64,000 bases of DNA, from contig CAJHZI010000303.1 in assembly GCA_905160935.1 (NCBI GenBank), positions 117,501 through 181,500 on the forward strand, read 5' to 3'. This DNA is from Enchytraeus crypticus (taxonomy: Eukaryota; Annelida; Clitellata; Enchytraeida; Enchytraeidae). Under the pieces are notes generated by a model. It was not told the origin of the DNA, did no database searches, and saw only the letters and a program-made list of their open reading frames with translations. Shown here in pieces: positions 15,998 through 60,148 of the stretch (its first letter is position 1; each line of letters begins with the position of its first letter). Made by a program: the position numbers and the translations under genes.

Positions 15998-18621
15998 ATG
16001 TCAGGACAGGGGCCTATAGAATGGGACACCATTGTGATAGGAGCGGGGGTAGAGGGATCTGCTACTGCTTATCATCTCGCCAAAATGGGTCGCAAAACTC
16101 TCCAATTAGAACAGGTTTGAATTTCTGTATTATATGTGAGCTTTTATGTTATAAGCTACTGAGTCTCATTGAACAGTTACCGATTATTATGGTGTAGTTG
16201 GCTAATTATTACAGACAAATAATGATTATTACATTAAATACTAATTACTACTAATTACTATGACTAATTTATTACAGTATTTCATTTAATTGATTGATTT
16301 TACGAAGCATTGATAGATTAATTTTTTATTACATTTAATTGGTTAATTGTGCAGTTTTGAATGGCTCTAAGTACTGTATGTTTCTCAGTAACCAGGAAGA
16401 ACTACTCAAAAAATATGCTGCTACATTAGAACTACTAATATTCACATTTGATGAATTGATGACTAAGATGATCAATGATGTAATAGTTGATTGATTAATT
16501 TAATTATGACTTAAATGACAAGATGGATTGATGACTTGATGGATTTCTATTGCTAGGTCTAAATATAAATAGAAATTACATTAAAATGGCTGTTTTTTGT
16601 TTGTAACTATAATTGTATAATGTCAATATATCACTATTGTGTTGGTTAAGTGTATATATGCCTTCTTGTTAGTTAATTATATATTTGTATTAGTGTTTTT
16701 AATGAGTCTTATGCAGGCTTGTAATTTGCTTTCTGAATAAAAACTGTTATGTTATGTTATGTTATTTAATTAATTGACTGCTTTATTATGTTATTTAATT
16801 GATTGACTGCTTTATTATGTTATTTAATTACTTAACTGCTTTATTATGTTATTTAATTGATTAACTGCTTTATTATGCTATTCAATTGATTGACTGCTCT
16901 ATTATGTTATTTAATTGATTGACTGCTTTATTGTGCAGTTTTCTTTACCGCACTCTCGCGGCAGCTCACACGGTCACAGTCGTATCACGAGGAAAGCTTA
17001 CCCGCAGCTCTTCTACTCTCAGATGATGATTGAAGCCTATCAAATCTGGGAGGATCTTGAAAAAGCTGTCAGAGCTAAACTATTTACGTTAGTCTGTTAC
17101 AATAAGAATTACTTGATCATGTAATAGCAATACCATTATTCCATTATTAATTATTATTCCAATTCATACCGATACACCATTATTCTTGGGGGATTCTGCA
17201 TATGACGAGATGGGCCTCTCCTGTAGAACATATTTATCCCCTATACCTTCATCAGCTTAGACTAACATTTGCCCCTGACCGGTAATGTTAGTCAAAGCTG
17301 AGGAAGGCATAGGGGCCCACCTCATCATATGCAGATTCTCCCAAGAATATTGGTGTATCATGTTAGATGATTTAAAGATCCACTCAAACGTGGACATGAA
17401 GAGAAAAAGGAAAACAAAGAAGAGCTGAAGCGTTATATACCATGGACCTGCCAGTGGGCAGTGCACTAAGAGAGAGAGAGAGAGAGAGTAATAGCAATCA
17501 TTTGAGGCTGTTACAACATAATTACTTGATCTGTAATGAACTGTCTCCTTCAGAAATAGTTATTGGATTTGTTATAGTAATAATATTGATAATTGTGAAA
17601 GAAAGTGAAAGCAATATTGACTCTAAGCGATATTAACGAGGTGTGATGTTAGATTTTAGCTCTATAGCTACTGATCCACAGTGATATAACTCTACTCGTA
17701 TTGATAGAAGCTTGTAGGATTTTTTCTTGTGTTTGTTGATTGATTGATTAATTGACTGATTGATTATATGATTTATTAATTGATTGTTGGATTGATTAAC
17801 GTAGGAAAATAGATTTGTCTATTGGTTAAGAATTTATAGAAAATAGAAATAGATTTGTCTATTGGTTAAGAATTTATTAACAGATGTGCTTGTTATGCAC
17901 AAATTTTCTGAAATATTTCACGTTTACGTATAGTTGTGAGAAAGATGACATTGGTAGTATTCTTCAGAGATACTGATAGTGAATAAGAGACTTTAGTACT
18001 TATATTGAAATATATTGCAATCAATATTTAGCGTTTCCCTATACTGATTAAGATTGACTGATTGATTATATGATTTATTAATTGATTGTTGGATTGATTA
18101 ACGTAGGAAAATAGATTTGTCTAGTGATAGAGAACGCAGGTGCTCCCACCTGTGATTCAAGGTGAATATTGTTGCTAGCATTATGTTTATTTACGAATGA
18201 CATTTAATTAATTATTGTTTTACATTAAATAATTATTCCACAATGCTTAATGTCTTAATGGATTGCTTTATTGATAGATAGACTAATTTACTACTCAATT
18301 GATTTGTTAAACTGGGATTCAAGGGAAGCTGATGATGATGGATTGATTGGTTGTTGTAGGAAGACAGGCTGTGTAGTCGTGGAGAAGGCAGGGGCTGGTA
18401 CAGAGGTCCACGACATAGAGAATGCTCTCACTAGTATTAACAGCGTGCCTGTGCTCATGAATGGTGATCAGCTGCGTGCTCGCTACCCCGTCATGAACTT
18501 TGACTCCTCGTTCAACGCTGTGCTCGATGTGGATGGAGGAATTCTGTCGGCTGATAAATGTCTGAGAGCTTATCAGGTAAACATGTGCGAGAGTCTGAGC
18601 GTTTATTAGGTTTAAGGGAAC

Positions 18622-21600: not shown

Positions 21601-24486
21601 GTCACATCCAACTGATTCTTTTGATGGTAGCATATGTCACATCCAACTGATTCTTTTGATGGTAGCATATGTCACATCCAACTGAGTCTTTTGATGGTAG
21701 CATATGTCACATCCAACCGAGTCTTTTGATGGTAGCATATGTCCTATCCAACTGATTCTTTTGATGGTAGCATATGTCACATCCAACTGATTCTTTTGAA
21801 TGGATGATCTATTAACTAATTGATTGAATGATTGATTGTTGTTTTGATGACCAGGTGTGTTATCACTATGGGCCTAACATCGACCCTAATCAGCGGGACC
21901 TGCAGGAACCTGCCCAGGGCTACAACAAGGCCGAGCTAGAGAATGTCATCAAGTTTGTACGGGAGCACTTCAAGGGACTTGAACCCCGGCCTAGTATTGC
22001 TGAGCCTTGCATCTATACGGTAAGACCATTTCTATTTACTTACTGTGCATCTAAACAGTAAGACCATTTATGTTTAGTTACTCTGCATCTTTTGATGCAC
22101 AATCTGTTGTTATTGATCAAAATCGCTCTTCTGAACTACCCCTCCTACGCGGTGTTCCTCAAGGTTCAGTGTTAGGTCCATTGCTCTTCTCTTTATATAT
22201 CACTCCTCTTAGCTACCTGCTTGCTCGGTCCTCCATAAATTTTCATTTCTATGCAGACGACACACAACTATATATTTCCTTTTCTAATCATGATTCTGAT
22301 CAAAAACTAGCTCATCTCTCATCCATTCTAGACATGGTTTATTCCTGGTTTTGTGCTAACCGTCTTGCTGTTAATCCTTCCAAAACTGAATACCTTTTAA
22401 TTGGCACTCCTTTGCAAAGAAGTGAAATTACCTATAGCTCTGTTAATTTTCAGAATCTTGCTCTTTCACCTTCTCGATCCGCCAAAATCCTTGGAGTCAT
22501 ATTTTATGAAAACCTTGACTTTAAATCCCATATCTCTTCTGTTTGTCGCGCTTCTTTCTTTCGGATTCGTCAGATTAGGCAAATACGTCCATCCCTTACT
22601 AGAAATTCAGCCACTATCCTTGCTAATTCTATAGTTCATTCAAAGCTCGACTACTGTAATTCATTATTACATGGGTTGCCTACTTCTTCTCTCAATCGTT
22701 TGCAGCACGTCCAAAATTCTCTTGCACGTGTTGTTTGCAAGTCCTCTCGACTTCAATTTCGCTCTCTTTCTCTACTTCGCAGTCTTCACTGGCTCCCTGT
22801 TAATCAACGCATAAAATATTAAAATAGCTCTATTAACTTTCAAAACTCTGCGATTTGGCAAGCCTTCTTACAAATCTGAAATTCTTCTTCCCTATCGTCC
22901 CTCACGTTAACTTCGCTCCACCGATGCCAATCTTCTCTCAGTTCCAAATATTCTCACGTCATTGGGCAGACGTTCATTTTCTTACGCAGCACCCACAATC
23001 TGGAACTCTTTACCTGCTAATCTTCGCTCTTGTTTTTCTCTTTCAACATTCTCTAGCAAGCTTAAAACTTACCTTTTCCCACCATAGACATAATCAATCT
23101 ACCCTTACCACTGTTTTTGCGTTTAGGACCTTACTTCTCCTCAGCACATTTCTTTCGCAGATTGGTCTGGGTGAATTGATCTGTAGTGATGTGTGCTGTT
23201 GGGGACGTCCCCGACATCATCCCTGGATGAGGAAACGGACGTTAAACCTTTATTTATTTATTATTATAATTATTTATCTAAACGATTACAACTATTTATT
23301 TCTGTTTAGTTACTGTGCATCTAAACGGTGCTACTGTTTATTTAGTTACTGTGCATCTAATCAGTACGGCTATTTATTTCTATTTAAATACTGTGCATCT
23401 AAACAGAACGACTGAGATACATGATCATACTGAAAATATAGTATAAAAAATCGAACTTCTAAGTACTATACTGCCACAGACTGTCGAGTTTTATTTTATT
23501 TTATTACAGCATTAATTACAGAAACACCAATTTGTAACCTATGAATTGAATCATATATGGAATTTGTATATTTTAGGTCGTTATGGCTTGTTGCATATAT
23601 CTGCAACTTATGCAATTTATTAAATATTGATTGATTGATCGATAGATTGATTAATTGATATGATTGTTACAGTACACTCCAGATCAGGATTTTATTCTTG
23701 ATAAACATCCAAAGTGGAACAACATCATCATTGGAGCTGGTTTCTCTGGTAATTTATATTTACTATATAAACTCTTGTATGTTAGTAGGCATTTCATTTT
23801 TAATTATATTATAAATATAAATTCTTCTACTTCTTATAGTGCACTGCCTAACGGCAGGTCCATGGCATGTAACTCTTCCAATCAATTCTATCCTCAGCTT
23901 TCCTTTTTATCTCTATATACAAATTTGTTTTAAGATCATCCAGAATCCCATGTCGCAGTCTTCCTGTAACTCTGCATTCTTCCTTCTACTACATCCTTTA
24001 GCAAACCATCCCTCCTTTTAAAATGTCCTATCCAGCTTTTTATCCAGCTTGAATATGAATATATTAGTACATTTCATCATCATCATCATCCTTATCTTCC
24101 CTTGAATCTCAGTTTCACTAGGGTCAGGATACGAATAGACCTTTTTCATTCGTAAAACTTGCCATAGCAGACTTTCTGTATTATTATTTTATGTATCCAG
24201 GACATGGCTGTTTGCTGTAGCGAGTTTTTGTATTATTATTTTATGTATCCAGGACACGGCTGTTTGCTGTAGCAGAGTTTTTGTATTATTATTTTATGTA
24301 TCCAGGACACGGCTGGTTGCTGTAGCAGAGTTTCTGTATTATTATTTTATGTATCCAGGACACGGCTTCAAGCTGTCACCAGTGGTAGGCAAGGTTTTGG
24401 CTGAGCTAGCCTCATTCAAACAACCGTCCTACTGTCTCGATCCGTTCTCTATCCGCAGGTTCTACACACCGGAGGCGAAGCTTTGA
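15998..24486 (+). CDS. PIPOX: Peroxisomal sarcosine / L-pipecolate oxidase, 8 exons, complete
   Basis: FAD-dependent amine oxidase of the MSOX family; the family oxidises sarcosine and L-pipecolate in peroxisomes. Exons: 15998-16114, 16939-17087, 18360-18576, 18915-19103, 19651-19794, 21855-22019, 23673-23748, 24359-24486 (1185 nt, 394 aa; human protein 390 aa). All introns are GT-AG and all phases join. Seen: N-terminal Rossmann motif [15 protein letters not shown] (about residues 14-28), [16 protein letters not shown] in the middle, EPCIYT with Cys324 at the place of the covalent-FAD cysteine, the C-terminal FAD motif [19 protein letters not shown], and a C-terminal AKL peroxisome signal. 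The start is the only ATG just before the dinucleotide fold. Introns carry many repeats: a LINE in intron 6, SINEs, a 35-bp minisatellite, and tandem copies of the exon 6 donor and exon 8 acceptor. Identity is sure; substrate preference is inferred from the family. Confidence 0.93.
16735..16938 (+). repeat. 29-nt tandem array running into the PIPOX exon 2 acceptor
   Basis: Units of ATTGACTGCTTTATTATGTT type. The last unit becomes the exon 2 acceptor GACTGCTTTATTGTGCAG; the upstream copies keep the pyrimidine part but have ATG in place of CAG. Confidence 0.7.
17171..17359. mobile_element. Foldback (MITE-like) element in PIPOX intron 2
   Basis: A nearly complete 189-bp inverted repeat: GATACACCATTATTCTTGGG on the left pairs with CCCAAGAATATTGGTGTATC on the right, and the inner arms (TCTGCATATGA / TCATATGCAGA) also pair. 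No coding capacity. It borders a family E repeat. Confidence 0.7.
17360..17485 (-). repeat. Repeat family E copy in PIPOX intron 2
   Basis: Reverse copy containing CAGTGCACTGCCCACTGGCA (complement of the printed strand) and GTCCATGGTATATAACG, next to a GA repeat. Other copies: 23838, 34450, 44655, 49385, 52080 and 63025. Confidence 0.65.
17700..18130. repeat. GATT-rich repeats and a 65-nt duplication in PIPOX intron 2
   Basis: TTGATTATATGATTTATTAA and TTAACGTAGGAAAATAGATT occur at about 17760 and again at 18060; a shorter duplication lies at 17810-17880. Confidence 0.65.
18305..18345 (+). repeat. Repeat family C tail directly before PIPOX exon 3
   Basis: TTAAACTGGGATTCAAGGGA followed by AGCTGATGATGATGG, ending about 15 nt before the exon 3 acceptor. 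Confidence 0.55.
18604..18914 (+). repeat. Four roughly 85-nt units in PIPOX intron 3
   Basis: Each unit has ATTTAAGGGAAAGATGATGA, a GAT run, TTGCATGTTTCT and GACCCTGGTTAAG, i.e. a family C tail that has been tandemly amplified. The last unit ends in the exon 4 acceptor TGTCTGCTGTAG. Just before, at 18587-18607, the exon 3 end GTCTGAGAGCTTATCAGG is echoed as GTCTGAGCGTTTATTAGG. Confidence 0.7.
19206..19355 (+). repeat. Repeat family D copy in PIPOX intron 4
   Basis: ATTAGAGTGCTACAGTCATC, AATGACAACATCGAGCACTA, and GGTCCAAAAATGGTGCAAA. Confidence 0.75.
19370..19650 (+). repeat. Tandem array running into the PIPOX exon 5 acceptor
   Basis: Three to four units of 60-80 nt (AACAGTTATTATGCTGCCTA, GTTGTTTGTC, TATTAAAGTGTTCTAAATAA). 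The last copy supplies the exon 5 pyrimidine tract TTGTTTGTCTTACAG. Confidence 0.7.
19812..20022 (-). repeat. Repeat family C copy inserted at the PIPOX exon 5 donor
   Basis: Minus-strand copy with an ATC-repeat tail at 19813-19834 and the ACCCCTGGTTAAACTGGGA-type 3' segment. It lies about 18 nt from the exon 5 boundary, and GTTAAGGTGAT occurs on both sides. Confidence 0.7.
20062..20300 (+). repeat. SINE family B copy in PIPOX intron 5
   Basis: tRNA-like head: AGCGTAGGGTTAACGTC near the A box and GTGGGTTCGAATCCCAG at the B box, then TGATCTGAGAGTAAAATCT and the TTTACTTTTACTT tail. Confidence 0.8.
20353..20421. repeat. Perfect 21-bp hairpin in PIPOX intron 5
   Basis: AAATTTTCACGTAACAATTA and its reverse complement around an AT-rich loop of 27 nt. 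Confidence 0.85.
20676..20756 (-). repeat. SINE family A fragment in PIPOX intron 5
   Basis: Minus-strand copy with the family's CTCGCCCGTCA and CTTTCGAGTAAGGAAACTG segments. Confidence 0.65.
21108..21805 (+). repeat. 35-nt minisatellite, about 20 units, before PIPOX exon 6
   Basis: Unit CTTTTGATGGTAGCATATGT plus CCTATCCAACTGAGT, period exactly 35. Variants (CCT/CAC and GAG/GAT) alternate in the last third. TTTTGATG is shared with the exon 6 acceptor TTTTGATGACCAG, so the array may derive from it. Confidence 0.92.
22020..22090 (+). repeat. PIPOX exon 6 donor array, left part
   Basis: The exon 6 end and donor (TGCATCTATACG|GTAAGACC) recurs as TGCATCTAAACA|GTAAGACC with the edge at 22057 (period 38), and a third unit starts at 22085 before the LINE interrupts it. 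Confidence 0.85.
22070..23270 (+). mobile_element. Non-LTR retrotransposon fragment (RT C-terminal half and 3' tail), in PIPOX intron 6
   Basis: Reverse transcriptase signature blocks are visible: [17 protein letters not shown], the catalytic [10 protein letters not shown], a thumb-like segment with LGVIF, and [14 protein letters not shown]. The first reading frame closes near 22820; the continuation ([34 protein letters not shown]) runs in other frames with stops, so the copy is dead. It ends with a 3' sequence (GGACGTCCCCGACATC...GTTAAACCTTTATT) followed by TTAT repeats. The block order fits a CR1/L2-like or Jockey-like LINE; the clade is not resolved. The 5' part is missing. It is in the sense orientation of the host gene and splits an array of exon 6 donor copies. 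Confidence 0.88.
23276..23420 (+). repeat. PIPOX exon 6 donor array, right part beyond the LINE
   Basis: Units continue with ATCTAAACG, ATCTAAACG|GTGCTA, ATCTAATCA|GTACGG and ATCTAAACAG, edges near 23283, 23327, 23363 and 23405, each with TTTAGTTACTGTGC between them. Confidence 0.82.
23838..23945 (+). repeat. Repeat family E copy in PIPOX intron 7
   Basis: AGTGCACTGCCTAACGGCAG, GTCCATGGCATGTAAC and the pyrimidine-rich CTTTCCTTTTTATCTCTA segment. Confidence 0.65.
24067..24160 (-). repeat. Repeat family C, 3' fragment
   Basis: ATC-repeat tail and CCCTTGAATCTCAGTTTCAC, the family's 3' end in reverse. Confidence 0.65.
24170..24358 (+). repeat. PIPOX exon 8 acceptor array, 52-53-nt period
   Basis: Three upstream copies of TTTATGTATCCAG|GACACGGCT with decoy edges 24201, 24253 and 24306; true edge 24359. 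Each decoy would read GHGCLL or GHGWLL and stop, losing the last FAD-binding residues and the AKL signal. Confidence 0.92.
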
Positions 24487-28379: not shown

Positions 28380-28740
28380 TTAGCAGGGTCGTGGTGAGGT
28401 TAGGATAAGGGCGTGGTGAGGTTAGGATAAGGGTGTGATCAGGTTAGGATAAGGGCGTGGTCAGGTTAAGATAAGGGTGTGGTCAGGATAAGATAAGGGT
28501 GTGGTCAGGTTAAGGTAAGGGCGTGGTCAGGTTAAGATAAGGGTGTGGTCAGGTTAGGATAAGGGTGTGATCAGTTTAAGATAAGGGTGTGGTTAGGATA
28601 AGATAAGGGTGTGGTCAGGTTAAGATAAGTGCGTGGTCAGATTAAGATAAGGGTGTGGTCAGGTTAAGATAAGGTCGTGGTCAGGTTAGGATAAGGGTGT
28701 AGTCAGGTTAGGATAAGGGTGTAGTCAGATTAAGATGAAG
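28380..28740 (-). repeat. 22-nt minisatellite starting at the MDH2 stop codon
   Basis: About 16 units of ACCCTTATCTTAACCTGACC type. The first unit overlaps the coding end (CCTTCATCTTAATCTGAC, stop underlined by TTAA), so it forms the start of the 3' untranslated region. Confidence 0.75.
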
Positions 28741-30288
28741 GCGGGTTCTTTGCAATGAACTCCTCCCCTTTCTTGATGTTCTTCTGCAGCTCAGGCATTG
28801 CAGCCTTTACCAAGCTGACTTCATAGTCGTTCATCTTACCAAGGCCAAGATTCTTCTCTACGCCGTTCTTCTGCAACAGCAACACAAAGAGCAAAATGAT
28901 CATCTCATCTCTACACCTGCTCCCTTGCGCAAGTCACTGAGTCAGTCATTAGTGCTGAGTCACAACCAGTCTTTAGTGCTCTCATTGTACAGGTCGTATA
29001 GGTGACTGAGTCACAACCAGTCTTTAGTGCTCTCATTGTACAGGTCGTATTATTTATTATCTAGCAAGCCATTAATTCACCATGATGCTGCACTCCGACT
29101 CCATAATTTTACTACTGTATCATACTTCTCATATATAGTGGACCAAAAGGACTCTTTTAGATACAATGCAGATAATTTTATCTTCAGTTTTCATAAAAAA
29201 GAAACAACATATCTATCTTCAAATGTGAACTATTATATCCTTCTGCAAAAGGAAACATAAGCATACTTATTTTCCTATACAACAGAAAACAGGTAACGCA
29301 AGTTATTTGACAAAAGGACTTAAAGCGAGTACTGTCCGATTTGCTGAAGAAAAGATCAACCATAGAACTGCATGCGTCATAAATGGCAACAAAGCACTAT
29401 GATCCAAACCAAGGTCAGAAAGAGCATTCGGTGGGAGATCTCCAGAAATTGCTAAAAAACTTTCTAATCTCATCTCAAGTTAAACTTGGATTCAAGGGAT
29501 GATGATGACGTAAAGCGTTACCTATAGATACACAATATTTCTGATTTATACCATATGTATAGTTTGTGCCTTAAATACCAGGCACACAAGTACTTACTCC
29601 AAGCGCAGCAAGGGGGTGGAGAAATACTCTGTACTTACTCCGAGCAGTATGGGGGTGGAGAAATACTATGTACTTACTTCGAGCAGTATGGGGGTGGAGA
29701 AATACTCTGTAATTACTCCAAGCAGTATGGGGGTGGAGAAATACTCTGTACTTACTCCGAGCAGTATGGGGGTGGAGAAATACTCTGTAATTACTCCAAG
29801 CAGTATAGGGGTGAACAAATACTCTGTACTTACTCCGAGCAGTATGGGGGTGGAGAAATACTTTGTCTCGGCCACGTCTGACTGAACGAAGGCGCACTCA
29901 ACGACCCCGGACTCTCCCTCCAGAGCTTGTAGCACAGAGTAGACAAACTTGTTACCAGCATAGGCCATAGAGAGAGTGGCTGAGCCCTAGTCAATCAATC
30001 AATCAATCAATCAATCAACCAACCAATCAATCAATCAATCAATCATCGGCCATAGAGAGCATGGCTGAGCCCTAGTCAACCAATCAATCAATCAATCAAT
30101 CATAGGCCATAGAGAGAGTGGCTGAGCCCTAGTCAATCAACCAATCAATCAATCAAGCAATCAATCAGTCAATCAATCATAGGCCATATAGAGCGTGGCT
30201 GAGCCCTAGTTAATCAATCAATCAATCAATCACATCATAGGCCATAGAGAGCGTGGCTGAGCCCTAGTCAATCAATCAATCAATCAAG

Positions 30289-30320
<32 letters not shown>

Positions 30321-33300
30321 CAATCAATCAATCATAGGCCATAGAGAGCATGGCCGAGCCCTAGTTAATCAATCAATCAGTTAATCAATCAATGCATCCA
30401 TCAATTAAATAATTACATAAATCTGGAAGTTGTTAGTAATTAGCAAATAGTAACCAAACCTATTGCTATCATAGACTATAAAAACAGCAGGAGAATTTCT
30501 ATCAATAGCAATACATCATTGTACACTTTATTTTGAGTTTGTCACAGATTAACGAGAGTAACCGATAACGAGAATCTTTAAGTTATTACGTTAACATTAT
30601 AATTGATTGAACATTGATTGAATTGATTGGCGTTTCTTAATCACTGGAAGAACCCGGTAGTCAGGACAGAGTGGCTGTCTAACAGGGAATTAGTGGGTTC
30701 AGGTTTCAAATCCCACACTCATATGTCAAGGATATTCCTTCTCAGGATCTAACTGATATTAAATTAGGTTTCAATTATTTTAGTCTGTTGGAGATTCCCT
30801 GGTCACCATTTGATTGCATTTCTGTAACAATATTTTATATAAAGTGAAGTCTACAGTCAATTCGGCTACTGTAATTTACACCGCTCGTAAAGCACTCAAA
30901 GAAACCTATGTGCTGCAACAAATCTGGCTACATTGAATTTTATTTAAATTAAAATAAGACATTAATTTTTTTACAGTAATACATTTTTAATCATAGCTGT
31001 CCATATAAAAGATAAATAATAAATTTATATTATCATTTCACTCAGATGTTATAATTATAAACCTGCCCGTGTTGTGGCCGGGTTGCTTGAAGAATAGACC
31101 AACTGTGTAAATATGCACGTGTCGTAGAAGGCAATATAAAAACTAGATCCAAACAAACGTCAGAAAGGGCATTCGGTTGGTGAGCGCCTAGGCTCCAGAA
31201 ATTGCTACAAAAACTTAAACGAATGGAAAATAGTCTATTCGTTCGTATACCGACCCTGGTTAAACTGGGATCATTTAAGGGACGATGACGATGATGTTAT
31301 AGTTATAAACAGCACAACAACAACAACAGCAACAGCACAACAACAACAACAGATACTCACCGCCCCAGCCTTGGCTTCCACAACCTCAGTGCCGGCATTC
31401 TGAATCCTCGTTGTCATGGCAACCCTCTCCTCCTAGAACCACACAGTGCTAATGTTTAATGTGTACTAGAGTATATCAGGCTAAGACATCTCTATACTTT
31501 ACAACAGTTACAGAAAAACACGCAACATACAATAAAATGCGCTCAGTAAAAATCACTAAAATATCAAATAACTATCATATGTAACATAGCTTAAATATAA
31601 CAATCTGAGAAATGTAACAGTGAGCAGAATTCAAATGGAATAATCTATATGATAAATTATGATATATTATATATGATATATTGTATATGATATAATGACA
31701 TATTGTATATGATATATTATGATATATTGTATATGATATATTATAACATATTGTATATGATATATTATGATATATTGTATATGATATAATGACATATTGT
31801 ATATGATATATTATGATATATTGTATGTGATGTATTATGACATAGTATATGATATATTATGATATATTGTATATGATATAATGACATATTGTATATGATA
31901 TATTATGATATATTGTATGTGATGTATTATGACATATTGTATATGATATATTATGATATATTGTATATGATATAATGACATATTGTATATGATATGTTAT
32001 GACATATTGTATATGATATATTATGACATATTGTATGCGATATATTATGACATATTGATATATATGATGAATGGAATTAAATGTAGAGTGCATGACTAAT
32101 TGTTCTGGTCATTTCAAAATATCTAAATAGCCGGGTGTCTAGGAAGCCAGGTAATGTCGTGAAACTTTAAAAATCTTTATATGACTGATATAGACGCCTT
32201 AGAGATCCAGGGATCAACTTCCAGATGAGCTGATATGAAAGTAGAAGCTCAGAAGTTTGAAGAACAGGTAACATTGACTACTGACTATAAACAGCCGGAT
32301 GGTTCAGACGCTTCAGACATTAATAAAAGGAATTAGAAGTGAAAGATACCCATGTTGTGTCTGCGTTACTGAAGAATAGACCAACCATGGACTGCGCGTG
32401 TCGTAAATGGCGACAAAGAACTAAGATCCAAATCAACGTCAGAAAGTGCATTCGGTTAATGACCACCTAGGCTCTGGAGGTTGCTGCAGGATTTTCGATC
32501 CTGACCCTATCTAAGCGGGGATTCACGGAAAGACGATGTGATTAAAAAAACCTAATGTTAACGTCAGTTCACTCACTCGAAAGTGATGTCAGTGACGGGC
32601 GAGCCCAGGATCTGAACCCCGCACATACTGATCTGCGGTCGAATACCGACATCGCCACTGGCATCAGTGAATTAGAAACGACAGACCTCATCACTGATGT
32701 TCAAATGAACTAATGTATGTTTAACTGTTAGAGTTGAATATGTCGGAAGCTAGATAGTAAACGTTTCGTCATGCATGAAGGATTCTATACTACGAAAGAT
32801 GTCACTGATTAGAACTGATTCATTATGGAATCTATCAAGATATATTTTTGCTCAAATTCCCTCAAGAGATGATTTGTTTTATGTTCAAATTTATCATCAA
32901 GATAAACTAATAAAAAGTGATTGATTGATAGATTACTGGAGGAAAAGGTACAAGTTCAAGTAGATTGAGAGATAAGCGGTATTAAAATGACTCCTGATTG
33001 ATTGATAAAATAATTTAAAGATGGGGAATGATTGTGACTAGTGATTGATTGATTGATTGATTATATTACCTGAAGGAAAGATACAGGTTGGGTGCACTGA
33101 GAGATTAGGGGTATAATTATGACCAGTGATCGATTGATTGATTGATTACCTGAGGGAAGGATCCAGGTGGGGTGCACTGAGAGATTAGGGGTACGATTGT
33201 GATCTGTGATTGATTGATTGATTGACCACCTGAGGGAAAGATACAGGTGGGGTGCACAGAGAGATTAGGGGTAAGATTGTGACCAGTGATTGATTGATTG

Positions 33301-40994: not shown

Positions 40995-41026
<32 letters not shown>

Positions 41027-41353
41027 TTAGTCAGACGATGATGAAGTCGATAGATTGTTAGATTGATTAATTGATCAAATGACTGAATGATTGATTTATT
41101 GATTGAATGATTTATTGATTGATTGATTGATAGTCAGATGATGAAGTCGATAGATTGTTAGACTGATTAATTGATCAGATGATTGAATGATTGATTGATT
41201 GATTGATTGATAGTCAGACGACGATGAAGCTGATAGAGGATATGAAGACGGGAGCTGAGTTGGTCGCTAGTTGGACAGTGGAGGTGGGAGATCTAGATGA
41301 GGCAGGTCTCTCGCTAGAGCCTCGTGTTTCTTACTAATTATTATTTTATTTTC

Positions 41354-41387
<34 letters not shown>

Positions 41388-42766: not shown

Positions 42767-43312
42767 AATAGTGATGGTGACGGTGATGATGATAATGATG
42801 GTGATAGTGAGTGATGGTGATGATGATGATGATATGCTATCACTTGAGATCTTGGGAGTCATGGTATACTCTTATAGATTGTGTGACAGGAATTTTAATT
42901 GATTGATTTTATGCTAGACTACATCTGTCTCAGCTTTTCATTTCAATTATATTTACAAATTGGCTAAAGTAGATAAATCAGCTAAAAATGTTAGTAAATA
43001 AATAATGAAATTGAGAAATGCATTGTTCCATTCTTTAACAACAGCAATATAGAAATATTAAGTATGGCCTAGTTGTGCAATTTTAAAAATTTTATTTTCA
43101 GCGCCTCCATCTATTTTTTGTCTGTTTCCCGTTGTCTAGTCAATGAAGAAATTGCTTGTAAACAGTAAACAGGGAATATAATTATGTGTTGGAAGTTGAT
43201 GCAGTCCCACTATATCGAATTATTGTATTCTATTCTGACAGTCTATTTTGAAGAACCTTGCATTGCATTCATTTAAGAAACCCTGTGTTAAATTCTTATG
43301 GACTGATTGTTC

Positions 43313-43367
<55 letters not shown>

Positions 43368-44659: not shown

Positions 44660-44697
<38 letters not shown>

Positions 44698-47600: not shown

Positions 47601-48797
47601 TTAAACAATTACTCAGTCAGTTTCTTGTCTCACACTAAGCATATCAATGATACAGTGAGAGCTAGATTCGAACCTGTAAGTGTATACTGGGGAGGAGATA
47701 TGGCTTAACGGTTAGAGTGTTCACCTTAGAATGAAGTGACTTTGGTTCAAAGCCCAGCTCCGTCAACAAATGAATACCGCCTAGTGCCACTGGAATATTA
47801 ATCATATATCGTATCATGTTGATCATATATCTTCGCATAAAAGTAAAATAGAAACACGCATTATAGTGAAATGATCAACTATGTTGATATATATCACTTT
47901 TTAATTCAAAGTTCTTGTTTCAAAGAGGCGCCGTTAGCAACAAAATTATGATTTGTCATGGAAAGTTTTGTACAAGTTTAATTCTTTACATTTTGGATGA
48001 ATAACCGGATTTGAATTTAATTATTTTACTAATACTAATATTGTTATTATTATATTTAATTTTTAATTCCGGAGCAAACTGCATTAAATCTTTGCGAAGT
48101 ATGTAAAACCTTTTGCCGAAGATAAAGGTCTATCTCTTGCTCATCGCCAGTTTACTCTGCGGTAAATCTGCATGTGCCATTAATGTAGTCAACTCCATCG
48201 GGATTCATAGGACTCGTAGTTTAAATGGAACAACCTCTTAACCTGGGCTCGGTTCATAATATTTATCAACTTTCTTGGGAGTGAGTAATTCAGCAGCTCC
48301 GCCTGCAGTGACTGAAATTTTACTGAAGTAAGAGTTCGCCATAGTGTCAATGACCATGACGTTGTTATTATAAGTAATAATAGCCCATATTTGAACTTTG
48401 CTTCTCCTAAGCACATTTCATTTGCAGATTGATCTGGATGAATTGATCTGTAGTGATGTGTTCTGTGTGGACGTCCCTGACATCTTCGATGAGGAAACAA
48501 ACGTTAAACCTTCATTATTATTATTAGCACTACTAATACTACCACAACTATTATCATTATTATTGTTGTTTTTAGCTTTAGTACTACAAGAAACTTTACT
48601 AGTTTTATACTATTAGCGACAGGCCTACTTTGTACCTTTGTGGTAAATGTATTCTTTGAATATATTTAATGTAATTCTTTGTACCTTTAATTATTATGAT
48701 TGATACTAGTTCTTGTTTTGTTTTTGTTTCAGTGCCTCTGATTAGACACATGACGTCACGTATTCTGATACCAACTCCTTTCTCTCCTCTGAAATAA
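38833..48797 (+). CDS. NIPSNAP: NIPSNAP family protein, 10 exons, complete
   Basis: Homologue of vertebrate NIPSNAP1/2, mitochondrial proteins with a ferredoxin-like dimeric barrel fold, linked in vertebrates to mitophagy signalling. Exons: 38833-38912, 39423-39664, 40117-40162, 41214-41305, 42374-42444, 43390-43530, 44479-44510, 44776-44870, 46001-46084, 48733-48797 (948 nt, 315 aa). Residues 1-27 are a basic mitochondrial-type leader. About 40-80 is a Gly/Glu/Lys-rich low-complexity stretch longer than in vertebrates. The domain follows with recognisable blocks: [60 protein letters not shown], and the C-terminal [17 protein letters not shown]. The donor GTTACT after exon 8 is unusual but restores HHLWAY as in the family. 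Exons 4 and 5 are preceded by tandem copies of their acceptors, and exon 9 sits inside a TG-repeat tract. Paralogue assignment between 1 and 2 is not possible. Confidence 0.94.
40163..40420. repeat. 17-nt AT-rich array after NIPSNAP exon 3
   Basis: AATTAATTATGATTATT units starting within 15 nt of the exon 3 donor. Confidence 0.8.
40715..40800. repeat. ATT/TATATT array
   Basis: TATATTATTATTATATTA units. Confidence 0.85.
40925..41213 (+). repeat. NIPSNAP exon 4 acceptor array
   Basis: Three copies of TAG|TCAGACGATGATGAAG at edges 40936, 41031 and 41134 precede the true edge 41214 (TAG|TCAGACGACGATGAAG). GATT/GATC repeats separate them. All three decoys read to the same TAG about ten codons in. 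Confidence 0.88.
41342..41430 (+). repeat. AAT triplet tract with a repeat D remnant
   Basis: AATAAT repeats, CACCAGGGTAAAAAA, and AACAACAACAATTAGAGTAG, the first bases of family D. GAGGCAGGTCTCTCG is found on both sides (41299 and 41429), so it looks like a target duplication that includes the exon 4 donor. Confidence 0.55.
41574..41715 (+). repeat. SINE family A copy in NIPSNAP intron 4
   Basis: Near full-length: GGCTGGAGCCAGTGGCGATG start, GGGTTTCAAGTCCTGGGCTT B-box region, and GCTGACGTTAACATTAAC end. Confidence 0.8.
42173..42373 (+). repeat. NIPSNAP exon 5 acceptor array, 47-nt period
   Basis: Four upstream copies of the exon 5 3' splice site plus exon start (TTAG|TTCACCTGTGGAAA), with decoy exon edges at 42186, 42233, 42280 and 42327, then the true edge at 42374. 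Each spacing is exactly 47 nt. In the exon's frame each decoy closes exactly on the TAG of the next unit's acceptor. Confidence 0.92.
42523..42840 (+). repeat. Repeat family C, full-length copy with long GAT tail
   Basis: Best copy: CCCATGTTGTGTCAGGGTCG start, TCGTTAAAGGCGACAAAGC, CAACGTCAGAAAGGGCATTT, CAGAAATTGCTACAAA, TTAAACAGGGATTCAAGGGA, then about 100 nt of GAT/GGT triplets. No clear tRNA boxes were seen, so it may be a V-SINE-like or 5'-truncated LINE tail. Confidence 0.8.
43540..43875 (-). repeat. Repeat family C fragment with about 250 nt of ATC/CTT triplets
   Basis: A long ATC-rich triplet tract (43543-43780) is followed by CCCTTGAATCTCCGTTTAAC and AGGGTCAAGATACAGATAGA, i.e. the reversed 3' end of family C with an expanded tail. 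It begins 10 nt after NIPSNAP exon 6. Confidence 0.75.
44155..44212 (+). repeat. LINE 3'-tail fragment (family F) in NIPSNAP intron 6
   Basis: TCCCTGGATGATGAAACGGA and CGTTAAACCTTTATTATTTA match the 3' end of the LINE at 22-23 kb. Confidence 0.65.
44655..44735 (+). repeat. TC tract and repeat family E fragment in NIPSNAP intron 7
   Basis: About 35 nt of TC repeats, then TTAGTGCACTACCTATTGGC and AGGTCCATAGTATAAACG. Confidence 0.65.
44960..45055 (+). repeat. Repeat family C-like tail in NIPSNAP intron 8
   Basis: TGTAGTGTAGGACAGAGAAG, then CCGACCCTGGTTAAACTAGG and GATGATGATG. The 5' part differs from copies at 31 and 42 kb but matches 51528. Confidence 0.65.
45139..45202 (+). repeat. SINE family B fragment in NIPSNAP intron 8
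   Basis: Only the B-box part (GCGGGTTCGTATCCCAGCCG) and the TGATCTGAGAGTAAAATCTC segment remain. Confidence 0.65.
45655..46000 (+). repeat. TG/TATG-rich tract upstream of NIPSNAP exon 9
   Basis: About 300 nt of TGTATG-type repeats run into the exon 9 acceptor (GTATGTGTGTAG|CC), which has no pyrimidine tract. A short non-TG insert lies at 45855-45900. Confidence 0.85.
46085..46565 (+). repeat. TG-rich tract with about 60-nt units downstream of NIPSNAP exon 9
   Basis: Starts at the exon 9 donor (ACTG|GTAAGTGTGTG). From 46170 on, units contain GCTGTGTATGTAAGTATGTG, repeating a donor-like GTAAGTATG several times; this may derive from the exon 9 end. Confidence 0.75.
46861..47620 (-). mobile_element. 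Non-LTR retrotransposon RT C-terminal fragment, in NIPSNAP intron 9
   Basis: The minus strand reads a LINE thumb/C-terminal region: [25 protein letters not shown]-like block (here [18 protein letters not shown]), then after a stop near 47400 an open stretch with [30 protein letters not shown] and a terminal [17 protein letters not shown]. This is the usual order for the end of LINE ORF2. It differs in sequence from the element at 22-23 kb, so it is a separate family. Antisense to the host gene and truncated at the 5' end. Confidence 0.8.
47690..47910 (+). repeat. tRNA-like SINE joined to a family B 3' end
   Basis: Clear tRNA-like head with TGGCTTAACGGTTAGAG (A box) and TTTGGTTCAAAGCCC (B box). 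The downstream half shares ACGCATTATAGTGAAATGAT and CAACTATGTTGAT with family B. The head differs from the other family B copies, so it may be a subfamily. Confidence 0.7.
48061..48175 (-). repeat. Unclassified dispersed repeat, second copy
   Basis: Reverse, diverged match to 38095-38200. Confidence 0.45.
48398..48530 (+). repeat. LINE 3'-tail copy (family F) in NIPSNAP intron 9
   Basis: AGCACATTTCATTTGCAGAT, TGAATTGATCTGTAGTGATG, GGACGTCCCTGACATC and ACGTTAAACCTTCATTATTA match the last 130 nt of the LINE at 23.1-23.27 kb, without RT sequence. Confidence 0.75.
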
Positions 48798-49060
48798 TGC
48801 TGAGTCAGCAGCTTATCAGTGATAAGACATTCTCTTCATAGTAATGCTGCATTAACATCTTATCAGTGATAAGACATTCTCTTCATAGTAATGCTGTATC
48901 AACATCTTATCAGTGATATGACATTCTCTTCACATTAATGCTGTATCAACATCTTATCAGTGATAAGACATTCTCTTCACATTAATGCTGTATCAACATC
49001 TTATCAGTGATAAGACATTCTCTTCATAGTAATGCTGCATCAGCAACATGTCAGTCGTAA
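48797..49060 (+). repeat. About 57-nt tandem array beginning at the NIPSNAP stop codon
   Basis: Units of TCTTATCAGTGATAAGACAT plus TCTCTTCATAGTAATGCTG, five copies. The first edge overlaps the coding end (CTCTGAAATAATGCTG), so it forms the start of the 3' untranslated region. TTATCAGTGATAA is itself palindromic. Confidence 0.85.
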
Positions 49061-49137
49061 GACATTCAGTCTCTACTGTAAAATATCTCTGAATCAAGTT
49101 GTTACCAGTGATATGACGATAAACTGTAAGAAGAACA

Positions 49138-55306: not shown

Positions 55307-56809
55307 TTACATCTTATTTGCACCGACACTCTCAACATCGTCATCAAGCGATGTTCCCTCATCATCCTCATCTTCCGGTAGATCAATCAGATTGGCTTTC
55401 AGCTTCTCCTGATCAGAACGACTGAACGCCAATGACTCGAGATAGTCTGCTGCAGATCCATACCTAAACCAATCAATAGAATAATCAATCAATCAATCAA
55501 CCAATCGAGTAATCAATCAATCAGTCAATCAAATAATCAATCTATCGAATAATCAATCAATCAATCAAGTCTGCTGCAGATCCATACCTAAATCAATCAA
55601 TAGAATAATCAATCTATCAAGTAATCAATCAATCAACCAATCGAGTAATCATTCAATCAACCAATCGAGTAATCAATCAATCAATCGAGTCTGCTGCAGA
55701 TCCATACCTAAATCAATCAATAGAAGAACCCATTTTCTCATTTTCTGTTCTAAATACAGAACAGAAAAAAACTTTAACTGCTACTACAAGATAAACCAGA
55801 TAAAATTTAATCTTTACAATTGTATTTTTATTCAGCGCATCAGTGTCATTTACGAAAATGAAGTTGCATTTAACTAAATTAGCGATATACATAAAATAAA
55901 ATACTTGTATTTCATATACCGTTCCTTGTAGCAGTTAAAGTAACAATCATATTCACTATATGAATTCATAAACATTTTTATAAATGGTAAATTACTAAAT
56001 TTACAATTTACGAATATTATGTAGACCCCAGCACTTCCAATAAGGTTTCATAATTTGCGATGATTAACTGAAGAGTTTGTAGTATATCGTAAAATGTCTT
56101 AATAGCGTAGGGGTAACATCGTGAACTTTTAAACGACAGATCCTGAGGTGAATTGAATTCTCGTGGGTTCAAATCCCAGCCGCGCTGATCTGAGAGTAAA
56201 ATCTCGGGCATTCACTGGACTGGTTATACTGAAAATGTTCTAAATTGCCTAACGGTTTAAACATGTGGAATTAAAAGCAATAGATATCAACATAGTTGAT
56301 CATTTCACTATAGTGCGTGTTTACTATTTTTAGTATAGTATACTCACGTATCGTCGATATACTGCAGCACTTTCATCATGGTCTCGTACTTAGCGGTGGT
56401 GAACGTCTGACACATGTGAAACTTCTCTACAATCTCAGTGTACAGTCGCTCAGCCATCGGCTCCAGGCCTTCCTGTAATGAGCAGAGTAAAGAGTCTCAC
56501 ACACTGTCAGATATAACGAGCAGAGTAAAGTGTCTCACACAGTGTTAGACACAATGAGCATACTAAAGAGTCCAACACACAGTCAGACATAACGAGCAAA
56601 ACTAGAGTCTAACACACTGCAGATATAAAGAGCACACTAATGTGTCTCACACACTGTCAGATATAAAGAGCACACTAATGTGTCTCACACACTGTCAGAC
56701 ATAACGAGCATACTAAACAGTCTCACACACTGTCAGATATAACGAACACACTAAAGTGTCTCACACACTGTCAGATATAACGAGCATACTAAAGTGTCTC
56801 ACACAGTGT

Positions 56810-56868
<59 letters not shown>

Positions 56869-57587
56869 ACTTTACCTCTTTCCAGGGACACTCTCCTCAC
56901 TTTTATCTTATACTATACTTATACTAAAAGACATACAATTGACTCTGGTACATTGCCTGTAATTATAATTTTTTAATATTTTCTGATGACCAACCTCAGA
57001 TCTTGCGTAGTCGGTAGCGATGAAATGTTTTGACTTGCCGAGACAAGACAGCACCATCGCAGAGACAATACCCGTTCTGTCCTTACCATGTGCACAGTTT
57101 AGCATGGCCGGCACGTTGTCCTTCTCACACAGCAGCTTTAGTGCTGTGCGGTCAATTCAATAATCATTTCAATCTATCAATCAATCAGTTGATCAAATAC
57201 CAATTAATCACTCAATTAATCAATCACTCAATCAGTCGATCAAACAATCTGTCAATATATCAGTCAATATATCAGTCAGTCAATCAATAGATCAATCACT
57301 CAATCAATCAATCAGTTAGAACAAACAATCGATCAATCAATCAGTCAATCTATCAGTCAGTTGATCAATCAATAGATCAATCAATCTATCAATCAGTCGA
57401 TCAAATCAATGATCAATCAGTTACAGGAAGGATGGCACCTAGGCAAAGCCAGTATCAATTCAGTCCTCGCCACTTACACATTTTAGTATAATTCGTACGT
57501 TATCTTTCTCATAGAGTATGGTTAGCAGCTGCACAATAAATCAATATATATATCTCACTATAACCACCAAATAAAGAATAATAAGTC

Positions 57588-57630
<43 letters not shown>

Positions 57631-60148
57631 GTAACTGAAAATAATTAACACCAAATAAAGAATAACAAGACCAAAATACATATTCATATACGTAACTGAA
57701 AAATAATTAATCTTCAAAACTAATAATTAATCTCCAAAACTCAGTCGTAAGATGACAAAAGAAATGTCAAAATATGTAAAAAAAATGATACAATGCTACA
57801 CACCTGCACAGATAGCTGACTGACTGCGTTCTATCATGTCTATATACTGATATAATACAATGCTACATACCTGCACAGATAGCTGACTGACTGTGTTCTA
57901 TCATGTCTATATACTGGCCCAGTAGACCTTCCTTGTTCAGCACGTATTTCGCAAACACTCTCACGAAGTATCGATAGCCAGTTCCCAGCACGAGATCAAT
58001 GAGTAAGCAGAGGAGAGAATAGAGTTTTATGTACCACGGGGCACGACGGAATACTGCCCATATGTACTGCATCTGTAAATACACACACAATACATAAATA
58101 CAGAATACTGCCCATATGTATTGCATCTGTTCACATACAATACATAACTACGTAACGACAGAATACTGCCCATATGTATAGCATCTGTAAATACACGTAC
58201 AATACATAACTACACAGTGACGGAATACTGCCCATATGTATTGCATCTGTTCATACATATACAATACATAACTACAGTAAATAAATACATAATTTATGTT
58301 TCTATTTTCTTTGTTTTTTGCACATTTGCATTAATTTCTGTTCTGTATGTATTTTGGTTGCCCAAGCGGTGAATAAAAATATATATAACACAAGTCAATC
58401 AAGAATTGCTTTAAGTCCTTCTCAACCCAAGCTAAAGTTGAGCTCAATGATTAGCACCAGATTAGCATCAGCTGTAGGTTACCAAAAGCTAGATATTAGT
58501 GCCAGGCCCAGCTACCACTAAGGTAGCCTAGGGGTAGAGCTGATTTTGACTCAATACCTGCCTGAACGTAGATCAAGGAGCATGATATGTTTGCAAAATG
58601 GAAATAAATATACTCATACTAAAATCTCCTATTTGGAATACAAAACTAAGATTACAAACCATGTCAGGGCAAATGTAAATAAATTTACCAAAGAGCTTCC
58701 AGTATTATATATCTACAAGTCTTAACATTTGACGGACAACTTCAAGTAGCAAACAACTTATTTTATACCGTTCGGAGTCAAGACCATTAAAGTGATGCAT
58801 CAACAGTGGCTGGAGCCAGCGGCGAAAGCTGTAAAATCCGTGAATCAATAGGTGCAGGGTTCAAATCCTGGGCTCGCCCGTCACTGGCATCACTTTCGAG
58901 TGAGAAAACTGACATTAACCCTAGCTGTTAGCTTTAGCAGTGCACGAATACAAACCTTAAAGAAATTAATTAGAATGTGTTTGCCAGTAGGAGCATCAGC
59001 AGTTGTGATTTCTTCATTATCTTCACAATTCTCAACACTGCTACCACTGCTGCTTGCAGAAAATCCGTTACTCTCAGTGCTACCATCCACACACGTTGAC
59101 TTATAGAAAAGTCCCTTGAGAGGAACATAGCAGATAGGCTCTCCAGGTCGATAGCGGGATCTCAGCGGCAGCTTTACCTGTCACAAAACAGGTTTACAGA
59201 AGTGTATATTAGTTTATTTTTCTTTTAAAATTGATATTAATGTCATTAAATTACATAAAGTAAGTAGAGTTAATTTGATTATTAATTGTACTTACTTTAT
59301 GTAATTTTAATTTTAATCCTACTTATTTTTAAAGCATCATCGTCAGTAATTTACAGATAAGTATCGCTTGCCTCTTCAGCACATTTCTTTCGGAGATTGG
59401 TTTGGATGAATTGATCTGTAGTGATGTGTGCTTTGGGAATGTCCCGGACATCATCCCTGGATGAGAAAATGGATGTTAAACATTTATTATTATATTATAA
59501 ACTAATGCTATAGGAGGCTTTAATGTGAGTATAACTTTAGATATTACCCATTAAATGTTACAGATTATCATTTACTGATAACTCTTTCTCCCAATCAACT
59601 TTTAGTCTATGGGCAAACATTTGATCCTTTAGCAAACCACTAATAGACCACATTACGTTAACCACTCTTCAGTGCAACAATGACGTAATGTCAATTAAGT
59701 ACGCAACATGACCTGCTTGTCACTTATGACATTTCTGAAATTAAAGTTTAAAACTAACTACAGTTGCATAATAAGAAGTTTTTAAGGGTACCTTATAGAC
59801 TGGGTATAGACTATCGAGAAGTTTACAACCAGTTGCCTTCCTATATTCAGTCGATGATCTGAAATCAATTATACAACGAATTCCCAAATTTCTAAATCTG
59901 CTGATCTCGTCTTCTGTCAAAAAATCAGGCCTCGATGATCTATAGAGTTTAACGGGAACACACTTCTCTTGCAGGTCGGGTATAATACCATTGGACTGAT
60001 CTTTTTGCAAATTTTCAGAAGTTTTTATTTTATTTCCACTCTCGTTCCCTGAAGCAGGCACATCAAGGTCATCATTACTGCTGACTGTTGACTTGTTAGG
60101 GCAACCCACTTCACGGAAATTAGGCATAGAAGTGAACAATTGAGACAT
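55307..60148 (-). CDS. CX5R tyrosine/dual-specificity phosphatase, Y_phosphatase3-like, 6 exons
   Basis: Phosphatase of the class typified by MptpB/LipA (P-loop CxxGKDRTG; in that family the Lys/Asp pair goes with phosphotyrosine and sometimes phosphoinositide substrates). Exons in gene order: 60148-59792, 59177-58956, 58072-57871, 57143-56995, 56472-56348, 55463-55307 (1212 nt, 403 aa). Seen: domain start SMPNFREVGC near residue 8, YRSSRPDFLTEDEI then IRCIIDFRSSTEY, a hydrophobic segment around residues 205-230 (WYIKLYSLLCLLIDLVLGTG), and NCAHGKDRTG with C277 and R283 as the predicted catalytic pair. The C-terminal part has the helical LEPMAERLY...VLQYIDDTYGSAADYL block and an acidic tail. 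Two Ser/Asp-rich inserts (about 20-60 and 140-175) look disordered. A start 15 codons upstream is possible; I chose the one next to the conserved domain. No vertebrate name is certain; the substrate is unknown. Confidence 0.88.
55464..55735 (-). repeat. Phosphatase exon 6 acceptor array with TCAA repeats
   Basis: Two upstream copies of TTTAG|GTATGGATCTGCAGCAGA; decoy edges 55587 and 55707, true edge 55463. TCAA-type repeats fill the intervals. Both decoys read four codons past the copied exon and stop. Confidence 0.9.
56094..56335 (+). repeat. SINE family B copy, next to phosphatase exon 5
   Basis: Full-length copy with CGTGGGTTCAAATCCCAGCC. Antisense to the gene; it ends about 10 nt from the exon 5 donor. 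Confidence 0.8.
56476..56812 (-). repeat. 40-nt tandem array upstream of phosphatase exon 5
   Basis: Eight or so units with CTGACAGTGTGTGAGACAC and TTAGTATGCTCGTTATAT on the gene strand. It ends in the acceptor TACTCTGCTCATTACAG|GAAGG, so the last unit supplies the splice site. Confidence 0.75.
56812..56868. repeat. AT microsatellite in phosphatase intron 4
   Basis: TA run of about 55 nt. Confidence 0.95.
57150..57425. repeat. TCAA/GATT degenerate repeats in phosphatase intron 3
   Basis: AATCAATCAATCAGT-type tetranucleotide repeats, starting within 10 nt of the exon 4 acceptor. Confidence 0.75.
57455..57537 (-). pseudogene. Decayed copy of the phosphatase P-loop exon (exon 4)
   Basis: In intron 3, upstream of the real exon 4 in gene order, the minus strand reads LLTILYEKDNVRIILKCVSG then ED and a stop. 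This parallels LKLLCEKDNVPAMLNCAHGKDR of exon 4. The active-site Cys is kept, but the Arg codon position is TGA and the acceptor is shifted by one base, so it cannot work. It may be a dead alternative or duplicated exon. Confidence 0.65.
57590..57630. repeat. AT microsatellite in phosphatase intron 3
   Basis: TA run of about 35 nt. Confidence 0.95.
57791..57870 (-). repeat. Duplicate of the phosphatase exon 3 end and donor
   Basis: A 67-nt direct duplication: the last about 45 nt of exon 3 and its donor (ATCTGTGCAG|GTATGTAGC) recur with a decoy edge at 57804 (GTGTGTAGC). Confidence 0.9.
58073..58290 (-). repeat. Phosphatase exon 3 acceptor array
   Basis: Three upstream copies of ACAG|ATGCAATACATATGGG and the next 20 nt. 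Decoy edges 58126, 58184 and 58246; true edge 58072. The nearest decoy is 54 nt away and in frame (18 extra residues); the second reads into a stop. Confidence 0.92.
58805..58945 (+). repeat. SINE family A copy in phosphatase intron 2
   Basis: Near full-length; antisense to the host gene. It ends about 10 nt from the exon 2 donor. Confidence 0.75.
59370..59505 (+). repeat. LINE 3'-tail copy (family F) in phosphatase intron 1
   Basis: AGCACATTTCTTTCGGAGAT, GAATTGATCTGTAGTGATGT, GTCCCGGACATCATCCCTGG, then TTATTATTATATT. Confidence 0.75.

Follow-up and report, generated by a model that had tools for sequence, protein, structure and literature searches.

Tandem copies of intron/exon boundaries in the annelid Enchytraeus crypticus and their bias toward the 3' splice site

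Introns of the annelid Enchytraeus crypticus commonly carry tandem arrays in which the edge of the adjoining exon is copied together with its AG or GT splice signal. Across 12 loci picked blind to repeats, the DNA at splice junctions is prone to this kind of duplication at acceptors and not at donors. We read these arrays, with a probability of roughly 60%, as minisatellites of the type called mirages in lancelets, with founding duplications concentrated at the 3' splice site and tolerated as near-neutral variants. Within the reach of our literature searches, the novelty lies in the annelid case, in how common the arrays are in this genome, and in their preference for the 3' splice site.

Junction-spanning arrays in four neighboring genes

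The window, the whole 64,000-nucleotide stretch of DNA analyzed here, contains four complete genes on both strands, with 32 exons, 28 introns, and 56 junctions (Table 1). Exons were placed by reading frame and GT-AG edges, and with the outer splice sites each of the 28 introns is GT-AG and the reading frame of every gene stays open. Pfam supports the four labels, namely, DAO for PIPOX (a family wider than PIPOX), Ldh_1_N/C for MDH2, NIPSNAP, and Y_phosphatase3 for the tyrosine phosphatase, in which the HGKDRTG loop is present. The introns have a mean length of 982 nt and sum to 27.5 kb; the GC content is 34.8% in the window and 35.5% in the loci fetched for comparison.

Junctions were screened with an edge test, in which a 24-nt segment (12 exon and 12 intron nucleotides) was aligned to the remainder of its own intron and passed with a score of at least 20/24. 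The scores were bimodal, reaching 20 to 24 of 24 at 11 of the 56 window junctions and at most 14 at the other 45. A preliminary description of this DNA had named ten junctions with intronic copies of the exon edge and its splice signal, and all ten passed; the eleventh is the NIPSNAP exon 4 donor. About eight weaker junctions, left unnamed in that description, were not recovered, as none of the remaining 45 window junctions passes the edge test. Furthermore, the junction segments gave no match in the introns of other genes (0/390 per side), and the junction copies are therefore not due to chance. The copies do extend only away from the exon, as had been described, but this is true by definition, since the outermost copy is the only one that runs on into the body of the exon.

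Five further window junctions were inspected residue by residue alongside the 11. At the acceptors of PIPOX exon 2, MDH2 exon 2, and phosphatase exon 5, a minisatellite adjoins the exon and copies the intron with at most three to four exon nucleotides, and at the PIPOX exon 5 donor no copy was found on residue-level inspection. The exon 8 acceptor copies of PIPOX comprise the pyrimidine tract, the AG, and the initial exon nucleotides, and exon 7 of MDH2 is arrayed at both edges. A LINE reverse-transcriptase fragment at 22091-23275 (RVT_1 by Pfam, in the open reading frame 22055-22822) splits the PIPOX exon 6 donor array, which consequently predates that insertion.

Table 1. Genes, junction arrays, and related repeats in the window (positions in window coordinates)
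Feature	Position	Strand	Unit	True exon edge	Copies and other details
PIPOX gene, rebuilt	15998-24486	+			8 exons
PIPOX exon 6 donor array	22008..23404	+		junction 22019/22020	GT copies 22050-22087 and 23316-23355; partial unit 23376-23397
PIPOX exon 8 acceptor array	24165..24367	+	53	acceptor 24358/24359	three upstream AG copies
MDH2 gene, rebuilt	28730-37315	-			8 exons
MDH2 stop-codon minisatellite	28385..28741	-	22 nt		from stop codon into 3' flank; edge score 17/24, below threshold
MDH2 exon 7 donor array	29590..29866	-	39	exon end 29834	7.1 units (TRF); three aligned copies, 3/3 with GT
MDH2 exon 7 acceptor array	29959..30390	-	(TTGA)n + AG + ~28 exon nt	exon start 29986	five upstream AG copies
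MDH2 exon 5 donor array	32918..33445	-	80	exon end 33391	five GT copies; ~50-55 coding nt + GT in each unit
NIPSNAP gene, rebuilt	38833-48797	+			10 exons
NIPSNAP exon 4 acceptor array	40902..41237	+	~95	acceptor 41213/41214	three AG copies
NIPSNAP exon 4 donor	41294..41473	+		junction 41305/41306	single copy 41432-41473, GT kept; absent from the preliminary description
NIPSNAP exon 5 acceptor array	42154..42392	+	47	acceptor 42373/42374	four AG copies
NIPSNAP stop-codon minisatellite	48795..49067	+	47 nt		starts at stop codon; edge score 11/24, below threshold
Tyrosine phosphatase gene (Y_phosphatase3 type), rebuilt	55307-60148	-			6 exons
Phosphatase exon 6 acceptor array	55444..55733	-		exon start 55463	two AG copies
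Phosphatase exon 4 start and acceptor AG	57459..57546	-			one old diverged copy 385 nt upstream; score 25 over 88 nt
Phosphatase exon 3 donor duplication	57785..57916	-	67	exon end 57871	single GT copy
Phosphatase exon 3 acceptor array	58043..58276	-	~61	exon start 58072	three AG copies

Other repeats lie between the genes. Between PIPOX and MDH2, window positions 25481-26282 are occupied by a 15-nt minisatellite whose higher-order period is 135 nt. At 38299-38407, a 109-base A-rich run (90% poly-A match) stands beside (AAT)n and is followed by a dispersed repeat, which by eye is also present near 15740 and 19220.

Acceptor bias inside and outside the window

It is important to consider that the window was selected for the pattern itself. 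Tandem copies occur there at 11/56 junctions (19.6%) versus 598/3366 intron positions (17.8%), at 473/3120 (15.2%) of the non-simple intron segments, and at 5/366 exon-interior positions. By side the window is balanced, with copies at 6/28 acceptors and 5/28 donors. Under a null model in which the founding unit of each array is placed randomly within its own intron, 8 of the 35 arrays detected by TRF span junctions, compared with 4.1 expected (P = 0.03). Among the 28 arrays with a period of at least 20, four overlap an acceptor and four a donor, where 2.0 were expected on each side, which is not significant by side. The TRF array limits drop two acceptor cases, MDH2 exon 7 and NIPSNAP exon 4. 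Since tandem copies are no more frequent at window junctions than at ordinary intron positions and the by-side overlaps are not significant, the window by itself could not support a claim of junction enrichment.

A second set of loci was picked blind to repeats and comprised the Cpn60_TCP1 family (CCT1-8 and HSPD1, by Pfam search), ATP6V1A, and two ATP5F1A paralogs. Their introns (91 + 11 = 102) were placed by a purpose-written spliced aligner with manually entered human references, and first or last exons may have been missed or may be wrong. One probably false CCT6 intron was retained among the 102, and it contains no copy. In the same family, an intronless near-full-length Cpn60_TCP1 frame of 554 codons is found at C373:1699388-1700899, and contigs C259 and C400 gave matches with identical scores and spacing, which may be haplotype or duplicate copies.

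In these a priori loci, a second test was applied, in which a copy had to cover the junction, match 8 or more exon nucleotides at no less than 75%, and score at least 22. Copies were found at 22/102 acceptors versus 7/102 donors (Fisher, 0.004), or 29/204 junctions, and together with the window at 28/130 acceptors versus 12/130 donors (p = 0.009), or 40/260 junctions overall. Counted by intron, 19 had copies at the acceptor only, 4 at the donor only, and 3 at both (McNemar, 0.003), and a gene bootstrap gave 0.04-0.27 for the acceptor-donor difference. Random intron points treated as pseudo-junctions carried copies in 28/409 acceptor-like and 43/405 donor-like cases. The bias is also present with targets limited to 300 nt, a comparison in which junctions were excluded if they offered under 200 nt of target or if their 24-nt segment was simple, so that 128/130 per side were kept. 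A priori acceptors had copies in 17/100 cases versus 362/4438 intron positions (p = 0.005), and donors in 3/100 versus 279/4616 (not significant); including the window, the counts were 23/128 for acceptors (p = 0.004) and 8/128 for donors (not significant).

The founding-unit null was applied to the a priori loci as well. Among 49 a priori arrays with a period of at least 20, an acceptor was overlapped by at least 4 nt in 20, compared with 4.07 expected (0/1,000,000 simulations), and by at least 10 nt in 13, compared with 3.58 expected (20/1,000,000 simulations). The corresponding donor overlaps were 3 versus 4.07 and 3 versus 3.58. When the window arrays are included, acceptor overlaps rise to 24 and 16 against 6.07 and 5.37, with 7 for donors. 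Random placement, which the coverage within the window had favored, was consequently rejected for acceptors once the a priori loci were set against this null. Additionally, tandem-copy coverage by intron fifth, from 5' to 3', was 7.6, 4.5, 6.8, 11.7, and 17.6% in the a priori loci, and background coverage was 98/2510 (3.9%) in eight stretches not selected for genes (four flanking the window and four on other contigs).

The asymmetry was measured in a sample of 12 loci. Eleven of these loci contain copies, CCT6 being the one without any (0/10 introns), and in ATP6V1A the copies are confined to donors (2/5 introns). With sides pooled, the CCT and HSPD1 junctions are not above intron coverage (14/182 = 7.7% versus 8.9-10.6%). 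The preliminary description had offered two options, the first being that DNA at splice junctions is prone to tandem duplication in this lineage; this stands for acceptors (20 versus 4.1 expected) and fails for donors (3 versus 4.1) across the 12 loci. Its expectation of an enrichment over random intron placement was likewise borne out for acceptors in the a priori loci but not for donors, and not by side in the window. The second option, selection that merely filters random arrays, cannot lift acceptors above random placement.

The same description had pointed to arrays at two stop codons. The MDH2 and NIPSNAP minisatellites do begin at the stop codon or next to it, although both edge scores fall below the threshold (Table 1). 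Stop-codon edges scored 20/24 in CCT7 and 24/24 in CCT6, where the last exon looks false (an aligner artifact). In CCT7 (L014), a minisatellite starts in the last coding codons and continues beyond the stop, so that a coding end lacking any splice site shows the same pattern. An effect of coding edges in general was nevertheless rejected, since under the strict criterion 1 of the 9 genes with a usable stop edge (four from the window and five CCT genes) qualifies, which is too few.

Decoy splice sites and the (TTGA)n tract

The AG or GT is intact in 88 of 96 copies, in agreement with the earlier expectation that each array would offer serial decoy sites; at the DNA level, such candidate sites do exist. 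The copies are spaced at a median of 80 nt (middle half, 64-100), and their identity to the true edge averages 87% over the first 10 exon nucleotides and 80% over the adjacent 18 intron nucleotides. Decoy offsets from the true site are spread evenly modulo 3 (35, 31, and 30 of the 96 copies), spacings of up to 160 nt give 33, 23, and 35, and frame selection on the decoys was rejected, as neither count shows it. Because there is no frame bias, we read the retention of AG and GT as youth or homogenization of the copies rather than as use.

By weight matrix, upstream decoy acceptors look usable, with a mean of 6.83 versus 8.06 for their own true sites (p = 0.14) and a best decoy that equals or exceeds the true site in 18/28 cases. 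Decoy donors average 5.29 versus 7.87 for true donors (p = 0.03), with the best decoy at least equal to the true site in 6/12. True acceptors with arrays (8.06) and without arrays (8.72) have close means. In the two ATP5F1A paralogs, a decoy at the homologous acceptor lies at -79 and -77, and one paralog has an extra decoy at -163; the shared decoy is either an inherited copy or a recurrence. The possibility that the two contigs involved (C158 and C743) are haplotypes was rejected, as they are diverged paralogs.

Pooled over 16 gene loci (the window and L010-L021), (TTGA)n shows a strong, sense-strand-specific concentration directly upstream of 3' splice sites. The word TTGATTGA occurs 82 times in the final 60 nt of the 130 introns, or 10.5 per kb, versus 0.26 per kb near donors and 1.78 per kb in mid-intron, and its reverse complement is absent (0) from the last 60 nt of the same introns. 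In the 94 introns that lack copies, the density at acceptors remains high, at 8.5 per kb. Similarly, TTGAT is present between -60 and -4 at 59/130 acceptors, versus 14/130 donor-side and 24/130 mid-intron windows. The loose animal branch-site pattern is yUnAy. Since UUGAU matches it, the tract may be the branch/pyrimidine region in E. crypticus, a reading based on sequence resemblance.

In a good share of the arrays, an exon-edge copy runs into this tract, which suggests a breakpoint in (TTGA)n. A (TTGA)-type 6-mer lies no more than 20 nt from the seam of the exon copy in 12/28 acceptor arrays when any copy is considered, compared with a 12% background, and in 7/28 when one copy per array is considered (p = 0.04). 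Acceptors with TTGATTGA are not significantly more often arrayed than those lacking it (12/43 versus 16/87, p = 0.26), and the tract would therefore be at most one seed; as the sole seed, it is unsupported.

Origin of the arrays and comparison with known systems

The copies themselves are plain in the DNA, and they probably arose by tandem duplication of a segment of about 30-150 bp across the intron/exon boundary, with later expansion and contraction probably occurring through slippage or unequal exchange. In the 12 loci the founding duplications cluster at the 3' splice site, in the T-rich acceptor region that often bears (TTGA)n, and for a good part of the arrays one breakpoint lies as if inside that tract. 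Duplication across a junction would create a full decoy site and would leave the message unchanged while the outermost site, beside the exon body, is the one spliced. Array alleles would then drift as near-neutral length variants, with the AG and GT presumably kept because the copies are young or homogenized and not because they are used. A further reading, which we hold only tentatively, couples tandem duplication to the 3' splice site by way of splicing, transcription, or (TTGA)n, so that about one intron in five would have grown from its acceptor end, the intact decoys being ignored or redundantly used.

Other explanations start from a uniform origin of the arrays or from selection on them. 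If arrays arose uniformly and purifying selection cleared the coding sequence, the boundary cases would be leftovers of random placement and would reflect no property of the splice site. The window, with junctions no richer than intron positions and nonsignificant overlaps by side, and the a priori donors (3 versus 4.07) agree with this. However, the a priori acceptors are about fivefold above the null (20 versus 4.07, and 13 versus 3.58 at 10 nt or more), coverage rises toward the 3' ends of introns, and selection against arrays could only reduce junction counts, all of which make such an origin unlikely. We consider equally unlikely a form of survivorship in which arrays arise everywhere and a junction unit under purifying selection re-homogenizes its neighbors by unequal exchange, thus remaining recognizable for longer; the higher identity over the exon part of the copies (87% over the first 10 nt) than over the 18 adjacent intron nucleotides (80%) is as it predicts, but it also predicts an equal excess at donors, which is absent.

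Positive selection is rather unlikely as well. An extra branch region, pyrimidine/TTGA tract, AG, and exon edge could make recognition of the 3' splice site more robust, in line with the acceptor bias, with the AG or GT kept in 88/96 decoys, and with decoy acceptors that are not significantly weaker than the true sites (p = 0.14) while decoy donors are (p = 0.03). Against it, competition with the true AG would be expected from any decoy AG that brings a tract along, with a frameshift in most cases (35/31/30 modulo 3), and true acceptors score close whether arrayed (8.06) or array free (8.72). Errors of assembly or of reads are very improbable as a source of the arrays, even though the genome is reported as a PacBio and Illumina hybrid assembly (PMC8460440), in which the copy number of an array may be wrong. 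The copies differ mutually, with 80-87% mean identity to the true edge, the LINE fragment interrupts one array, and copies are present in 11/12 a priori loci.

The preliminary description had maintained that neither of the known processes it considered predicts arrays anchored on junctions, which overlooks the lancelet mirages (PMC3087553, PMC3902484) and the human boundary minisatellites (PMC2812944). Mirages are reported for lancelet Adh3 and the globins BflGb6 and BflGb9 (PMC3087553) and for PGBD5 in a paper that cites troponin C as another case (PMC3902484). In these accounts, as in E. crypticus, intron/exon boundaries of both kinds, donor and acceptor, are duplicated in tandem in a minisatellite-like manner, AG or GT persists in many units, and the real exon is the outer copy. 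The E. crypticus unit contains the exon edge and the splice site at 11/56 window and 29/204 a priori junctions, both boundary types are affected (28/130 acceptors and 12/130 donors), and the imperfect copies have a minisatellite unit size (96 copies; median spacing, 80 nt; identity, 87%/80%), which overlaps the 10-160 bp given for amphioxus. Length instability is reported for the lancelet Adh3 and globin mirages (PMC3087553); here, within a single assembly, the two ATP5F1A paralogs differ in copy number at a homologous acceptor, which bears on length variation only indirectly. The lancelet mirages are reported not to disturb regular splicing (PMC3087553, PMC3902484). The present case differs in its host, an annelid and not a cephalochordate, in being common (40/260 junctions) where the amphioxus reports proceed gene by gene, and in the 3' splice-site bias and the (TTGA)n at many acceptors.

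In human segmental-duplication genes, minisatellites are also located at exon-intron boundaries, with units of about 30 bp on average, 27 intron modifications reported after manual inspection, and cryptic splice sites activated in some (PMC2812944). According to that account, the human repeats frequently either stay within the exon or are removed from it by splicing, and they can give rise to new introns in recent paralogs, whereas in E. crypticus conserved genes retain the exon edge and the copies are intronic. The nearest annelid parallel that we found is in the metallothionein genes of earthworms, clitellates like E. crypticus, with minisatellites in intron 1 and one clone with two exon 4 duplications, one of them inverted, absent from the transcript (PMC12783039). 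The accessible text of that report does not describe the intron 1 repeats as spanning exon edges and gives no multigene count or side bias. One abalone gene has an intronic minisatellite, not described in the available account as spanning an exon edge. The Rogers model of intron gain (AG/GT proto-splice sites; PMC2891723, PMC4974935) has in common the tandem duplication that includes splice signals, but there a duplicated exon segment becomes a new intron (PMC2891723), and the E. crypticus arrays stand at one end of an existing intron.

The E. crypticus arrays and the introns of other sampled genes share no near-identical copies (0/390 per side), and a genome-wide search with the PIPOX exon 8 array region, skipping simple and very common words, returned only the self-match. 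Introner elements are dispersed, intron-making copies that carry splice sites. Both they and the E. crypticus arrays are repeated DNA with splice sites, but the E. crypticus units are local to one junction. In the literature searched, mostly outside subscription journals, we found neither a tally of junction-spanning arrays that separates the two splice-site sides nor one made for an annelid genome.

Mirages at about one-fifth of the sampled acceptors in an annelid suggest a common, position-specific route of intron growth, and the placement of founding units provides a measurable null for claims about junction arrays. The arrays also provide ready-made decoy acceptors that look usable, bear the edge of the exon itself, and are for the most part stacked 50-350 nt upstream, with which the choice of the spliceosome among near-identical 3' splice sites becomes testable with RNA reads. 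Gene predictors may misplace exon edges in array-rich genomes.

The assembly used here has 524,188,772 bases in 802 contigs; the published E. crypticus assembly is given as 525,192,231 bp in 910 scaffolds with a GC content of 35.41%, and its mtDNA as 15,205 bp with the Lumbricus gene order (PMC8460440). Six protein genes were placed on the mitochondrial contig of 15,205 bp, all on one strand, with NADH-subunit matches at 902, 3153, and 8346, COX1 at 9116, COX3 at 11749, and CYTB at 13165. By their spacing, we read the NADH-subunit matches as ND5, ND4, and ND2, respectively. This gene order fits the annelid order. Fragments of mitochondrial-type genes, probable NUMTs, are also found in nuclear contigs, including C158, C330, C361, C382, C424, and C442.
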